Shown piece after piece: positions 10,008 through 21,355 of a stretch of DNA of 21,355 nt. This stretch comes from Dehalococcoidales bacterium. Lineage in GTDB: Bacteria; Chloroflexota; Dehalococcoidia; Dehalococcoidales; Fen-1064. The notes below the pieces were generated by a model. That model was given only the letters and a program-made list of their open reading frames with translations. It did no database searches and was not told where the DNA came from. The first letter of the stretch is position 1. Every line of letters starts with the position of its first letter. The stretch lies in assembly GCA_028712845.1 (NCBI GenBank), contig JAQTPO010000017.1, positions 1 through 21,355 of the forward strand. Direction: 5' to 3'. Made by a program: the position numbers and the translations under genes.

Positions 10008-10038
10008 AATTTGCTCAAAAAAGCGTAAGGAGACAATT

Positions 10039-10965
10039 ATGGCTTGGTTAATAGTCGGTATCATTCTATTCATCTTGTTCCTCATCCTCGTACTTTCCTC
10101 AGTGTTCACGGTAGAACAGCAGACAGTTGCTCTTATTGAGCGGTTCGGGAAATTTAACCGGTTGGCAGAACCGGGCATACACTGGAGGATTCCCTTCGGC
10201 ATCGAAAAAGTTGCCTCCCGCCAGAGTATGAGAATAAGGCAACTCGACCTCGCCGTCGAGACCAAGACCCACGATGATGTCTTTGTCATCCTCAAGCTGG
10301 CAGTGCAATATTGTATCCCAAGCAAAGATAATGTCTTTGACGCATCTTATAAACTGGCTGACCACATTGTCCAAATGAATAGCTGGGTCTTCGATGTGGT
10401 GCGGTCGAAAGTGCCGACAATGAAACTGGACCAGGTCTTTGAAAACAAGGATGAAATTGCGGATGACGTGAAGAAAAACCTGCAGGAAAGAATGGCACAG
10501 TACGGCTGGGAAATTGTCAGGGCGCTGGTGAATGACATCGAGCCTGACGCCAAGGTCAAAGACGCCATGAACGAGGTAAACCGCCAACAGCGGTTACAAA
10601 CTGCCGCAAGCGCTCAGGGTGAGAAAGAAAAAATTCTGGTCATCAAAAAGGCAGAAGCCGAAGCGGAAAGTAAACGCCTTCAGGGCGAAGGTATCGCCAA
10701 CCAGCGGCGTGCTATCATCAATGGCTACCGTGACTCCATACAGAATTTTCAGGACGGAATACAGGGCGCCAGTGCTAAAGAAGTTATGGATTTGGTAGCC
10801 TTGACCCAATATTTTGATACACTGCAATTGCTGGGCGGAGACGCCCGCTCTAAAGTTATCTTTCTACCAAGCAACCCCGGAGCAGCGGGCGATTTCCTGA
10901 ACCAGATACGCATTGCCTTTGCCTCCAGTCAAGAAATATTACCCGGCGAGGAACCAAAAGAATAA
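10039..10965 (+). CDS. SPFH/stomatin-like (prohibitin-fold) membrane protein
   Basis: A 308-residue protein with one N-terminal transmembrane helix (about 3-22), then an SPFH/PHB domain (about 24-200; FTVEQQTVALIERFGKFNRL, then WRIPFGIEKV), then an Ala/Glu-rich coiled coil (KAEAEAESKRLQGEG and following) and a C-terminal tail ending in an acidic segment. The overall layout resembles stomatin and the plant hypersensitive-induced-reaction subgroup; such proteins form large ring assemblies in membrane microdomains. ATG at 10039 has AAGGAGA at 10027-10033; the longer in-frame start at 9937 lies inside the lipid kinase gene and is rejected. There is no NfeD-type partner protease next to it. Transcription ends at a strong terminator just downstream. 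Confidence 0.88.
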   Translation: MAWLIVGIILFILFLILVLSSVFTVEQQTVALIERFGKFNRLAEPGIHWRIPFGIEKVASRQSMRIRQLDLAVETKTHDDVFVILKLAVQYCIPSKDNVFDASYKLADHIVQMNSWVFDVVRSKVPTMKLDQVFENKDEIADDVKKNLQERMAQYGWEIVRALVNDIEPDAKVKDAMNEVNRQQRLQTAASAQGEKEKILVIKKAEAEAESKRLQGEGIANQRRAIINGYRDSIQNFQDGIQGASAKEVMDLVALTQYFDTLQLLGGDARSKVIFLPSNPGAAGDFLNQIRIAFASSQEILPGEEPKE

Positions 10966-17466: not shown

Positions 17467-18351
17467 TTATTTTGTCTTCAGAAATTCCCAGGTGTCTAAA
17501 ATTGCCTCAGCGCCATTCATAATTCCCTGAATAAACTCTTGCACTGTAGGAATTTTATCAACAGCGCCAGCAGCAAACGAAGCGGCAAGGCTCCAGTCCC
17601 TTTCCGCCGGTTGCACTATTCCCTCGGTCGGCCGCACTGGAGTGCCCGGTATCATCACCCTCTGGCGGAGTTCAGGACTATCCGGCGTCAGGTTGATAAT
17701 GCCTTCTTTCGATGAGTTTTTAATAGGACACTCACTGGTTGCCAGAAAAGCCGTGCCCATCATTATCCCATCCGCTCCCATCCCCAGGGCTGCCATAAAC
17801 CCATGCGCATCGCCGATACCGCCGGATGCGACCAGCGGGACATTAATGTTACGTCTCCCCCACAGGATTGTCGTCATAGTTGGCAACTGGGTAGGGTTCT
17901 TTATTCCCGCACCCTCCAGTCCCACCAGAATTATTGCTCCGGCACCCACCTCCACCGCATGAACAGCATCCTTGACCCTGGCAGCTTTATGCATCCACGG
18001 TAACCCGCTAGCTTTGATACGTGGTGCTAGCGCATCCGGTTTATAAACAGATGTCTCTATAGGTATTCTCTCTTCGATGCACACTGTCAGCATTTGCTCG
18101 ATTTCAGGACAAATGCCAATGCTCAAATTAACTCCGAAAGTCCCGGACGCTCCTGAACAGGCTTCCTTGCATTTTCTGATGTCTTCTTTTAGTTTTTGCG
18201 GAGTCCCGGAAATGGATGCGGTAATGGTGCCGTGAGCCCCGGCATTAGCAACCGCAGCAGCGAATTGCCAGCCACCCAGCTTTGCCATAGCGCCTTGCAT
18301 GATAGGATACTTACAACCAAGAAATTCCGTGATACGTGTCTTCCATTCCAT
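17467..18351 (-). CDS. Nitronate monooxygenase/FabK-like FMN protein
   Basis: A 294-residue TIM-barrel flavoprotein of the 2-nitropropane dioxygenase-like family, which contains nitronate monooxygenases and the enoyl-ACP reductase FabK. Seen: the N-terminal CKYPIMQGAMAKLGGWQFAA, FGVNLSIG (72-79), and the FMN phosphate-binding VPLVASGGIGDAHG with ALGMGADGIMMGTAFLAT (171-205). The loop that normally holds the catalytic His (EAGGH or ESGGH) reads LEGAGIKNP, with Ile150 in the His position, so neither classical NMO nor FabK chemistry can be assumed. The ATG at 18351 is directly preceded by GAGG, with AAAGGA further upstream, so the SD is imperfect. It lies in an acyl-CoA/lipid neighbourhood and is followed by plsC, which favours a role on CoA- or ACP-linked substrates; this is inference. 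Confidence 0.85.
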   Translation of the reverse strand: MEWKTRITEFLGCKYPIMQGAMAKLGGWQFAAAVANAGAHGTITASISGTPQKLKEDIRKCKEACSGASGTFGVNLSIGICPEIEQMLTVCIEERIPIETSVYKPDALAPRIKASGLPWMHKAARVKDAVHAVEVGAGAIILVGLEGAGIKNPTQLPTMTTILWGRRNINVPLVASGGIGDAHGFMAALGMGADGIMMGTAFLATSECPIKNSSKEGIINLTPDSPELRQRVMIPGTPVRPTEGIVQPAERDWSLAASFAAGAVDKIPTVQEFIQGIMNGAEAILDTWEFLKTK

Positions 18352-18357
18352 CCTCTA

Positions 18358-18669
18358 TTAGCCGTCCTTTCTCTTTGGTCTGCTGGTAGTAAAAACAGGG
18401 TTATCCATTGGTGCACTGAACAAGCTCATAGTTCTTGTCAGCACACAGCCACATCGGCTGGTTATTTGTAACAACACCTGATAAGTCATCACATCAGGCA
18501 TAAAGAGCGGGATACAGGATTCGAACCCGCGACAACCTGCTTGGAAACATTCACCAGAGGATACCCCTGCCTTTAGCTTTGCAACTATAATAGCCGCCGG
18601 ATTGGCAGGTGTTTCGGGAGACAGCGAGGCAAGCAGCTTTTTTGTATTGGGATTATTGCTTGCAGACAT
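18358..18669 (-). CDS. Doubtful 103-codon frame spanning the tRNA fragment
   Basis: Open frame of 103 codons starting just inside repeat copy 2 and ending 6 nt before the NMO/FabK-like gene. Its middle (codons about 41-55, AGCRGFESCIPL) is simply the translation of the tRNA-Gly 3' half, so the frame as a whole is unlikely to be a functional protein. The first 40 codons (rich in Ser, Pro, Ala; ANPAAIIVAKLKAG) could be the 5' end of a gene cut by an integration or excision event. No family was recognised. The SD is poor (GAGG one nucleotide before the ATG). Confidence 0.2.
   Translation of the reverse strand: MSASNNPNTKKLLASLSPETPANPAAIIVAKLKAGVSSGECFQAGCRGFESCIPLFMPDVMTYQVLLQITSRCGCVLTRTMSLFSAPMDNPVFTTSRPKRKDG
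18506..18547 (-). pseudogene. 3' half of tRNA-Gly(UCC): probable att site of an integrated element
   Basis: Read on the minus strand from 18547 the 42 nt have the exact architecture of tRNA positions 32-73: anticodon loop TTTCCAA (anticodon UCC), anticodon 3' strand GCAGG, a 5-nt variable loop, T-stem GCGGG, T-loop TTCGAAT, T-stem CCTGT, acceptor 3' strand ATCCCGC and discriminator T. The 31 nt upstream cannot supply the matching acceptor, D-arm or anticodon 5' strands (no GCGGGAT; anticodon stem 0 of 5 pairs), so the gene is truncated at the anticodon loop. Tyrosine recombinases commonly cross over there and leave such 3' halves at one end of an island. The 3' end points left, so the element would extend to the right. 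No 5' half is in the window. Confidence 0.8.
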
Positions 18670-18693
18670 GCCTCAATCTTCTTCCTTTTCAGC

Positions 18694-18739
18694 TTTTTTG
18701 ATACTATCATATGCCCATAAAGATATCAAGACAGACAAT
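18694..18739 (-). repeat. 46-bp direct repeat, copy 2
   Basis: Second copy of the element at 14300-14345 (42 of 46 identical, same orientation). It lies 147 bp to the right of the tRNA-Gly fragment, inside the presumed element side. The same minus-strand TTGATA-N17-TAGTAT arrangement is present. Confidence 0.8.
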
Positions 18740-19032
18740 GATGGCTGCATTATTCTTTGATTTATCACCTATTGGCACCGAAGGCAATACTTACTGCAAT
18801 AACGAGATAACAAATGGTACCGCTATTTGAGGTATATCGGATAAACAACAGAACACGCTTATAACTTCATGAAATGGTTTCCCAAAAATGAGTGATTGTT
18901 TTGTTCTGGCTAAGTAGTCCAGTTTGAACACAGACCCAGCCTTATGTTAGTCTAGAAATATAGATATAGTGTGTGCTTTCTGGAACTACAGCCTTCATCT
19001 TTCAAACTACTTGAAAAGGAATCGTGTCAATT
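18740..19032. other. Intergenic leader region of the CoA-transferase gene
   Basis: No gene seen. With the doubtful frame discounted, the gene-free stretch is 18352-19032 and also holds the tRNA fragment and repeat copy 2. A weak plus-strand promoter is possible (TTGAAC at 18924-18929, 18-nt spacer, TAGTCT at 18948-18953), followed by AAAAGGA (19014-19020) before the ATG. Confidence 0.35.
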
Positions 19033-21355
19033 ATGGGTACCGTCTCTCCCGATGTAAACAGTCATACAACTTCCAACGGACGAAAAGCGCTTGACGGAGT
19101 AAAGGTCATCGAGTGGTCGCAAATGGTTGCGGGGCCTTACTGCGCCAAGCTCCTAGCCGACCTCGGCGCTGATACCATTAAGATAGAAGACCCCGGTGGT
19201 GATGAGGCACGTAAGCGGGGACCCTTTCTCCACGATGAAGCGGATCCGGAGAAGAGCCTCCTTTTCCTCTATCTGAACACAAACAAACGGGGTGTCACAC
19301 TGGACGTGCACAGCCGTACCGGAAGAGAGAAGTTCATCGAATTGATACGTTGGGCTGATATCTTTATCGACGACCATCTGTCCCAGTCCCTCGCTGAGTT
19401 GAAACTTGATTACGCTGAACTGAGCAAGATTAATCCGGCTCTCGTGATGGCTTCTATTACTCCCTTCGGGCAGAGCGGACCTTACAGCAACTATAAAGCC
19501 TACCCACTAAATATCTGGCATGGCGGCGGTCTGGGTTATCTAAGTCCGATAACGGAGGGAATACCCATTCCTCTTAAACCCGGCGCTTATTGGAGTGAGT
19601 GCGCCTGCGGTCTCGTTGGGGCAGTTGGCGTGGTGGCAGGATTGTATCATATGAGAGAGACAGGCTGTGGGCAACTCGTCGATGTTTCAAAACAAGAAGC
19701 CATCATGGGTTTAGCGAGGGTGCAACTTGACCGCTATCCTAATGAAGGCGTGGTGCAAAACCACGCTGGATTTCCCAGGAAGGGACCTGCTCTCGTCCAC
19801 TGTAAAGACGGCTATATGGTGTACTCCGGCACCCAGCAACACGAATCGAAGGCGCTGATACAGTTTATTTCTGGAACAGATACCAATAAATATGAGAAAT
19901 TTCTTGATGAAGATTTCCGCGAAGATCACTGGTTGGAATTGAAAGATAATATTTCGAAGTGGATGGAGGAATACCCCAAGGACTGGCTCTATCACCAAGG
20001 ACAGGCAGCTGGCGTTCCAATTGCGCCGGTGATGACAGTTGAGGATATAGTGAAGTCAGCCCAGTCCACAGCAAGACAACTCTTTATCAAGGGCGTTCAT
20101 CCAGTGGCTGGAAAATTAATTTACCCGGCTTCTGCCTGCCGCTTTTCAGCTTCGCCAGCGAGTATAGAGCGGGCAGCACCGCTGCTGGGCGAACATAACA
20201 CGAAAGTATTTGAGAAACCATTGGCACCCAATATAATAAACACACCGAAACCAGACAAGAAAGTCGGGCGTATCCTCGAAGGGATAAGGATAGCCGACTT
20301 CTCCTGGGCTTGGGCCGGCTCGCACGCCACAGAGCTTCTGGCATTTCTTGGTGCCGAAGTCATCAAGATTGAGAGTATGAACCGGATTGATATGGTCCGC
20401 AAAATGTCTTTCACGACAGGCCAGAAATTTACCGGTGTTAACTCTTCCAGCGTCTTCAATGGACTTAATCTGGGAAAACTCAGCATCAAACTTAATTTGA
20501 GCAAGCCAAAAGGCATAGAGCTGGCTAAGAGAATCGTGGGTATGAGCGATATCGTTATGCAGAATATGCGTCCGGGAGTCATGGAAAAACTCGGCTTGAG
20601 CTATGATACACTCAGGGCAATTAAGCCGGACATCGTTTACCTGTCATCTTCCACACGAGGTAGTATCGGACCGGAGAGGAACTACTCCGGTTACGCTCCT
20701 AATTTTGCGGCTTTAGCCGGCATATCTTACCTTTGCGGTATGCCTGACGGCGAACCTTGCGCTATGGCAGGAGAAATCGACATTTTGAGTGCTGTTTCCT
20801 CGGCTTTTGCTCTCCTGGTTGGGCTTAATCACCGCAAGATGACCGGGGAAGGACAGCACATCGACCTTTCCTCTACCGATTCCTCCAGTGTACTCATCGG
20901 GGATGTCATTATGGACTACATGGCAAATGGCCGTGTACAGACGCGGTGCGGTAACCTCGACGAAGCTATGGCACCCCACAACTGCTACCGGTGTAAGGGT
21001 GAGAATAAATGGGTTAGCGTCGCTGTGGCTACGGATGAAGAATGGCAGGCGCTATGCAAGGTGCTGGGCAATCCTGACTGGAGCCGGCAAGAGCGTTTCC
21101 GTACTGCCCCATTACGCTGGCAGAACCAACTGGAACTGGACAGGTTATTTGAAACGTGGACAATGAATCACACCCATTATCAAGTCATGGAGAAACTCCA
21201 GACGGCGGGAGTGGCAGCGGTTCCTGTCTTTGATGCGGAAGAAATTTATAAAGACCCGCATACGCAACAGCGCCATTGCTGGACACAGGTCTCACATCCA
21301 GTATTGGGTCCGCAGATGGTCCTCAGGCCGGCATGGCAATTATCTGCCACGCCGA
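19033..21355 (+). CDS. Tandem-domain family III (CaiB/BaiF) CoA-transferase, 3' end beyond window
   Basis: One uninterrupted frame of at least 774 codons running off the right edge. Two homologous CoA-transferase domains are visible. Domain 1 (about 20-395) starts LDGVKVIEWSQMVAGPYCAK and has TNKRGVTLD and the GQLVDVS motif (Asp217). Domain 2 (about 415 onward) starts LEGIRIADFSWAWAGSHATE and has GQHIDLS (Asp611), NMRPGVMEKLGLSYD and, near the edge, KDPHTQQR. Such enzymes move CoA between acyl-CoA and a carboxylate, and both domains keep the Asp-containing motif. Single-domain members are about 400 residues, so this is a fusion or internal duplication; DddD (DMSP CoA-transferase/lyase) is a known two-domain precedent, but the substrate here is unknown. 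ATG at 19033 has AAAAGGA 12 nt upstream. It lies on the island side of the tRNA-Gly fragment. Confidence 0.85.
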   Translation, partial: MGTVSPDVNSHTTSNGRKALDGVKVIEWSQMVAGPYCAKLLADLGADTIKIEDPGGDEARKRGPFLHDEADPEKSLLFLYLNTNKRGVTLDVHSRTGREKFIELIRWADIFIDDHLSQSLAELKLDYAELSKINPALVMASITPFGQSGPYSNYKAYPLNIWHGGGLGYLSPITEGIPIPLKPGAYWSECACGLVGAVGVVAGLYHMRETGCGQLVDVSKQEAIMGLARVQLDRYPNEGVVQNHAGFPRKGPALVHCKDGYMVYSGTQQHESKALIQFISGTDTNKYEKFLDEDFREDHWLELKDNISKWMEEYPKDWLYHQGQAAGVPIAPVMTVEDIVKSAQSTARQLFIKGVHPVAGKLIYPASACRFSASPASIERAAPLLGEHNTKVFEKPLAPNIINTPKPDKKVGRILEGIRIADFSWAWAGSHATELLAFLGAEVIKIESMNRIDMVRKMSFTTGQKFTGVNSSSVFNGLNLGKLSIKLNLSKPKGIELAKRIVGMSDIVMQNMRPGVMEKLGLSYDTLRAIKPDIVYLSSSTRGSIGPERNYSGYAPNFAALAGISYLCGMPDGEPCAMAGEIDILSAVSSAFALLVGLNHRKMTGEGQHIDLSSTDSSSVLIGDVIMDYMANGRVQTRCGNLDEAMAPHNCYRCKGENKWVSVAVATDEEWQALCKVLGNPDWSRQERFRTAPLRWQNQLELDRLFETWTMNHTHYQVMEKLQTAGVAAVPVFDAEEIYKDPHTQQRHCWTQVSHPVLGPQMVLRPAWQLSATP

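Follow-up and report, generated by a model that had tools for sequence, protein, structure and literature searches.

What does half of a transfer RNA (tRNA) gene tell about the DNA next to it? The question is raised by contig JAQTPO010000017.1 of a Dehalococcoidales bacterium (hereafter the window: the whole analysed stretch of 21,355 nucleotides), in which 42 bases of the minus strand read as the 3' half of a glycine tRNA gene, tRNA-Gly(UCC), cut at the anticodon loop. The original prediction, made from the letters of the window, took this fragment for the edge of a genomic island lying to the right. We find that the 3' half is real, that it lacks its 5' half, and that it was probably displaced by the site-specific insertion of an element on its right side. 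The fragment is an ordinary finding of a known kind, most likely an island edge or the relic of one.

The 3' half of a tRNA-Gly(UCC) gene and its missing 5' half

Read on the minus strand from 18547 to 18506, the fragment opens with the loop TTTCCAA (anticodon UCC), followed by the 3' strand of the anticodon stem (GCAGG), the variable region (TTGTC), the first T-stem strand (GCGGG), the T loop (TTCGAAT) and the second T-stem strand (CCTGT). It closes with the 3' strand of the acceptor stem (ATCCCGC) and the discriminator T. All five pairs of the T stem (GCGGG/CCTGT) can form, two of them being G-U, and the T loop is intact. There is no CCA after the discriminator; tRNA genes of the host may not encode it.

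The fragment was compared with three intact tRNA-Gly(UCC) genes (L017, L016 and L007). All alignments were ungapped, and the chance level was the highest score reached on either strand in 200 dinucleotide shuffles of the full window. From 18546 to 18505 (tRNA positions 33 to 74) the window is identical to L017 at 36 of 42 bases and to L016 at 34 of 42, with shuffle maxima of 26 and 28, respectively. With L007, whose length differs by one base, the best value is 25/42 at a one-base shift (shuffle maximum 27). Two of the three references are far above chance, and L007 is not when aligned without a gap. Position 32 is a T in the window and a C in L017, L016 and L007, so that the identity to tRNA-Gly begins at position 33. 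The second-best match of the window to its own fragment is only 24/42; there is accordingly no second copy in the window. We conclude that this segment of the minus strand derives from a genuine tRNA-Gly(UCC) gene, of which it is the 3' half, in agreement with the original assignment to tRNA positions 32-73.

The 5' half is absent. Beyond position 33 on the upstream side, the window agrees with the 5' halves of the three reference tRNAs at 4/31, 10/33 and 5/32 bases. The anticodon stem would have none of its five pairs, and the acceptor stem at best five of seven, solely at the wrong spacing. Nowhere in the window does a 5' half rise above chance, the best matches (17/31, 20/33 and 19/32) being close to the shuffle means (18.6, 19.5 and 19.0). 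The unpaired 5' side and the truncation at the anticodon loop were both part of the original prediction, and both are borne out. The possibility raised along with it, that a full tRNA folds here after all, was tested and did not come true: ARAGORN predicts no tRNA, and Rfam reports none at the gathering threshold, the sole match to the tRNA clan at an expectation value (E) ≤ 10 being tRNA-Sec, which scores 15.3 bits where 47 are required (E = 2.8). The folding of the 73-nucleotide stretch is no better than that of its shuffles (z = 0.76), and the tRNA of L017 folds as a cloverleaf (z = -1.67). By ARAGORN, Rfam, folding and stem pairing alike, the complete cloverleaf of a functional tRNA-Gly(UCC) gene is not found at the fragment. 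The identity starts within the anticodon stem-loop, from loop position 33, as the anticodon-loop class of islands requires, and the 5' strand of the stem is not kept.

Proposed integration into a tRNA gene and the rival explanations

When an element integrates into a tRNA gene, the target is split and then made whole again by the element; one end of the island is marked by the intact tRNA and the other by the displaced fragment (PMC4383910). Of the 3919 mapped islands in that paper, 3760 have left a 3' fragment and 2083 have an anticodon-centred site, and tyrosine recombinases are given there as the only enzymes known to target tRNA and transfer-messenger RNA (tmRNA) genes. According to a review, the anticodon loop and the palindromic stem around it correspond to the seven-base overlap and the core site of a tyrosine recombinase (PMC8371274), and a common core of at least 40 bases over a host tRNA gene is described in a phage paper as strongly predictive of the bacterial attachment site, attB (PMC2884959).

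Applied to the window, a site-specific integrase, by default of the tyrosine family, would have recombined the attachment site of an element (attP) with an attB in the anticodon loop of a chromosomal tRNA-Gly gene. The attP would carry a copy of the tRNA 3' half, and this copy would restore the tRNA at the far end of the element, off the right end of the contig, and what was left behind as attR would be the 3' half native to the chromosome. Since the tRNA is on the minus strand, its displaced 3' half would remain attached to the chromosome downstream, at the left, and the element would lie to the right. It would start at about 18548 and may still be intact; the flavin-enzyme gene on the left would belong to the chromosome. 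The cut site and the polarity claimed in the original prediction thus follow the published signature, whereas the island, the integrase and the intact tRNA-Gly that it also called for are not seen in this contig, which ends 2.8 kilobases (kb) further right.

Comparable fragments exist elsewhere. Insertion is favoured by the 3' fragments described for Dehalococcoides islands at tRNA and tmRNA genes (PMC2764846) and by the G081 case below. A BLAST search with an intact tRNA-Gly (a 74-base query) over 113 genomes of another class found at least two lone tRNA-Gly(UCC) 3' pieces, in genomes G081 and G089, starting at query base 25 and 24, respectively. The piece of G081 (L054) is on contig 46, positions 46948-46997. 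An integrase gene lies 8.3 kb to its left, on the side where an element would lie, in a genome that is unrelated to the window; a second one, 1.4 kb to the right and thus on the other side, adjoins a tRNA-Arg and may belong to it. This genome has 22 integrase matches in 3.2 megabases. Its intact tRNA-Gly ends 19 bases short of the end of a different contig, for which a continuing contig was searched and not found. The G081 piece is likely an island broken by assembly. The piece of G089 (L055; contig 41, 12468-12518) is followed by an apparent tRNA-Arg start, as is the intact tRNA-Gly of the same genome. A search with a 30-base pattern allowing 3 mismatches returned 0/113 and 1/297 genomes, the latter with an intact tRNA, and is too strict to give a base rate.

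Several observations weigh against an intact island at this edge. The flank GAATG, which would be the left core arm of attP, is not the mirror of the right arm GCAGG, and the fragment, starting at position 33, begins later than those of G081 and G089, which retain the entire anticodon stem. The late start and the unmirrored flank may reflect a less symmetrical attP or decay after the insertion. No integrase, relaxase or phage structural family was found among the 20 window proteins scanned with Pfam, nor with PHROGs among 16 of those 20 (LexA matches phage repressor families there, as expected of LexA). Nor did Pfam reveal an integrase gene in the 2.8 kb between the fragment and the contig end (21355), and none of the nine integrase matches of G089 is on the contig of its fragment. 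Three patterns made of parts of the fragment had no exact match (0 each) in viral contigs. No compositional break is seen across the proposed edge: the coenzyme A (CoA)-transferase gene on the right has a G+C content of 0.509, and of 0.539 at third codon positions (GC3), within the range of the left-hand genes (GC3 without 10029-10965). With this composition, and with a best organism-named relative from Chloroflexota on each side, the original claim of a CoA-transferase gene inside the island is unsupported. Finally, the putative integrase of the Dehalococcoides ssrA islands is a serine recombinase (PMC3146451), so that the tyrosine family is not a given for the integrase proposed here.

Because the late start and the unmirrored flank may point to decay, some weight has to be given to a relic, of which the inserted element was later deleted or rearranged; the half tRNA would be a fossil and the CoA-transferase gene ordinary chromosome. 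The likeness of the right-hand gene to the left-hand ones in composition, and a best organism-named relative in Chloroflexota for both sides, are as such a relic would have them. Yet the remaining 42 bases are well preserved, with every T-stem pair and the T loop in place. Moreover, among the 120 homologues listed for each side, no two entries agree in the length of their longest contig, apart from the window's own (as judged by eye), which hints weakly that these genes do not usually lie side by side. We regard a relic as possible but rather doubtful. It is unlikely that a metagenome assembler fused two places sharing the 3' half of a tRNA. A contig of G081 does break at its tRNA-Gly, and the window consists of one contig for which there is no other copy as a check; however, as the 5' half is missing here, a simple join within an intact tRNA would still require a lone half elsewhere.

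Bacterial tRNA introns sit in the anticodon loop, precisely where the cut falls. A split or intron-bearing tRNA-Gly gene, with its 5' half further to the right, is nevertheless hardly credible, as Rfam detects no intron family in the window and no 5' half exceeds chance there. A very unlikely alternative is that the tRNA-like piece has been kept for a function in an RNA or a reading frame upstream of the flavin-enzyme gene, as may be suggested by a locus in the mom homologue of Dehalococcoides. Counted along a 103-codon frame, which continues in phase with the flavin-enzyme gene, the piece spans bases 123-164, and the published locus is within the first 150 base pairs of its host gene (PMC3146451). 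That locus, however, is predicted to fold as a complete tRNA, whereas the window holds a half that folds no better than shuffled sequences, in a frame with no homologues and no Mom or other Pfam domain. It is even less probable that the half is kept in the leader or frame upstream of the flavin-enzyme gene as a device in which element insertion or excision, or the tRNA-like T arm, would switch or tune that gene.

If an island is indeed present to the right, the fragment gives the precise boundary of that island, in a lineage that is uncultured and possibly Dehalococcoidia, and points to where its integrase would be located. The use of the finding is in annotation, and the knowledge of tRNA-targeted integration is unchanged by it.

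Features around the junction

Table 1. Position and basis of the features at and around the tRNA-Gly(UCC) fragment
Feature	Position	Strand	Basis
Junction where the tRNA-Gly identity ends (anticodon loop, 5' edge); proposed as the attR crossover, element side right	18547..18548		Mismatch of the 5' half; island signature (PMC4383910)
3' half of a tRNA-Gly(UCC) gene, tRNA positions 32-73, without 5' half	18506..18547	minus	Identity to L017; T-stem pairing
Open frame of 103 codons through junction and fragment; probably not a gene	18358..18669	minus	No homologue or domain
Flavin enzyme resembling nitronate monooxygenase; on the proposed chromosomal side, the first gene	17467..18351	minus	PF03060, E 2.3e-28
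Stretch from the fragment to the CoA-transferase gene; would be the element end	18548..19023		Frame, Pfam and RNA-family scans
Tandem (two-domain) family III CoA-transferase gene on the proposed element side, truncated at the contig end	19024..21354	plus	PF02515, two stretches, E 4.6e-182

The 103-codon frame starts on the proposed element side and stops 6 bases before the ATG of the flavin-enzyme gene, in the same frame. Among candidates of 0.55-1.75 times its length, its only homologue at E ≤ 10 is itself, and it has no match in Pfam, PHROGs, phages, plasmids or viral contigs. As unsupported frames of at least 100 codons are numerous elsewhere in the window, mostly overlapping real genes, we treat this one as a chance frame or a remnant and probably not a gene. 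A weak promoter-like site upstream of it (18729-18701) scores 9/12; three such sites occur in 18300-19100, where 2.2 are expected.

On the left side, the closest of the 120 homologues listed for the flavin enzyme are 85, 82, 80 and 80% identical. Four of the 120 carry an organism name, one from Dehalococcoidia (67%), two from Deltaproteobacteria (both 66%) and one from Syntrophales (63%). With this enzyme as query, a scan of genome contigs returned no more than two loci, both distant (43 and 40% identity) and without synteny or tRNA. The other genes left of the fragment code for a fumarate-reductase-like flavoprotein, an iron-sulphur protein, fumarate hydratase, malic enzyme, an old-yellow-enzyme-like oxidoreductase, an ABC transporter, LexA, a zinc-finger protein, a lipid kinase, an SPFH protein, an amidase, a cyclophilin, a 3-hydroxyacyl-CoA dehydrogenase, a carboxyltransferase and an acyltransferase. 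The left-hand genes are thus metabolic and housekeeping in character.

On the right side, the closest of the 120 listed homologues of the CoA-transferase are 79, 75 and 70% identical, and none of the three carries an organism name. Eighteen of the 120 are named by organism: 11 from Chloroflexota or Dehalococcoidia, 4 from other groups and 3 simply as "bacterium". The four closest of these named homologues (62, 60, 58 and 58%) are all from Chloroflexota or Dehalococcoidia. By the named relatives of the two genes, a host from Dehalococcoidia is possible. The tract that holds the fragment (18352-19023) is, with 672 bases, the longest intergenic tract of the window, the next one having 331, a difference that speaks for the proposed insertion. 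Within it, the would-be element end contains eight stop-to-stop frames of at least 35 amino acids and a single Pfam match (E = 0.06) under its cut-off, and its G+C content is 0.397, other intergenic stretches ranging from 0.33 to 0.55. No RNA family at E ≤ 1 was found in 18490-21355.

The window has no megablast match in the phage and plasmid collections, and viral contigs contain no confirmed relative of the 103-codon frame, the flavin enzyme or the CoA-transferase. The tRNA half matches phage and plasmid records at E ≤ 10 (624 and 103 records, respectively). Six of these records were examined (one phage and five plasmids), and in all six the match is inside a complete tRNA-Gly gene, extending in one case 6 bases beyond the tRNA-Gly end. 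One record, L018 (NZ_CP092413.1), is a 5.7-kb Bacillus velezensis sequence filed as a plasmid, with 8 tRNA genes and no annotation; similar-sized Bacillus records are in the same list of plasmid matches. NZ_CP092413.1 may be a piece of chromosome filed as a plasmid.

Comparison with known tRNA-targeted systems

A tRNA-Gly-like locus with a predicted complete fold has been described inside the mom homologue of 16 ssrA island modules of Dehalococcoides, and a putative tRNA also in the mom homologue of a marine fosmid (PMC3146451). Like the window fragment, this locus resembles tRNA-Gly and lies towards the beginning of a reading frame. Since it is predicted to form a complete tRNA fold in a conserved gene, and the window has half a tRNA in a frame without a Mom domain, the likeness is loose. 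Why a Mom gene should carry a tRNA-Gly is nonetheless a question worth asking.

The tRNA and ssrA islands of Dehalococcoides, a possible kin of the window's lineage, are similar in that 3' fragments of tRNA or tmRNA genes mark the island ends (PMC2764846, PMC3146451). The targets named in the available portions of these papers are tRNA-Ala, tRNA-Val, tRNA-Lys and ssrA, in contrast to the tRNA-Gly of the window, where no dehalogenase or recombinase gene is in view. The available portion of a paper on Sinorhizobium meliloti hot spots (PMC11476347) contains nothing on tRNA-Gly. A further correspondence is with the anticodon-centred class of the Islander collection (PMC4383910). The window differs from this class in displaying neither the partner intact tRNA nor an integrase and in lacking the 5' strand of the anticodon stem, and it agrees with it in the 3' tRNA half, the cut in the anticodon loop and the orientation of the signature.
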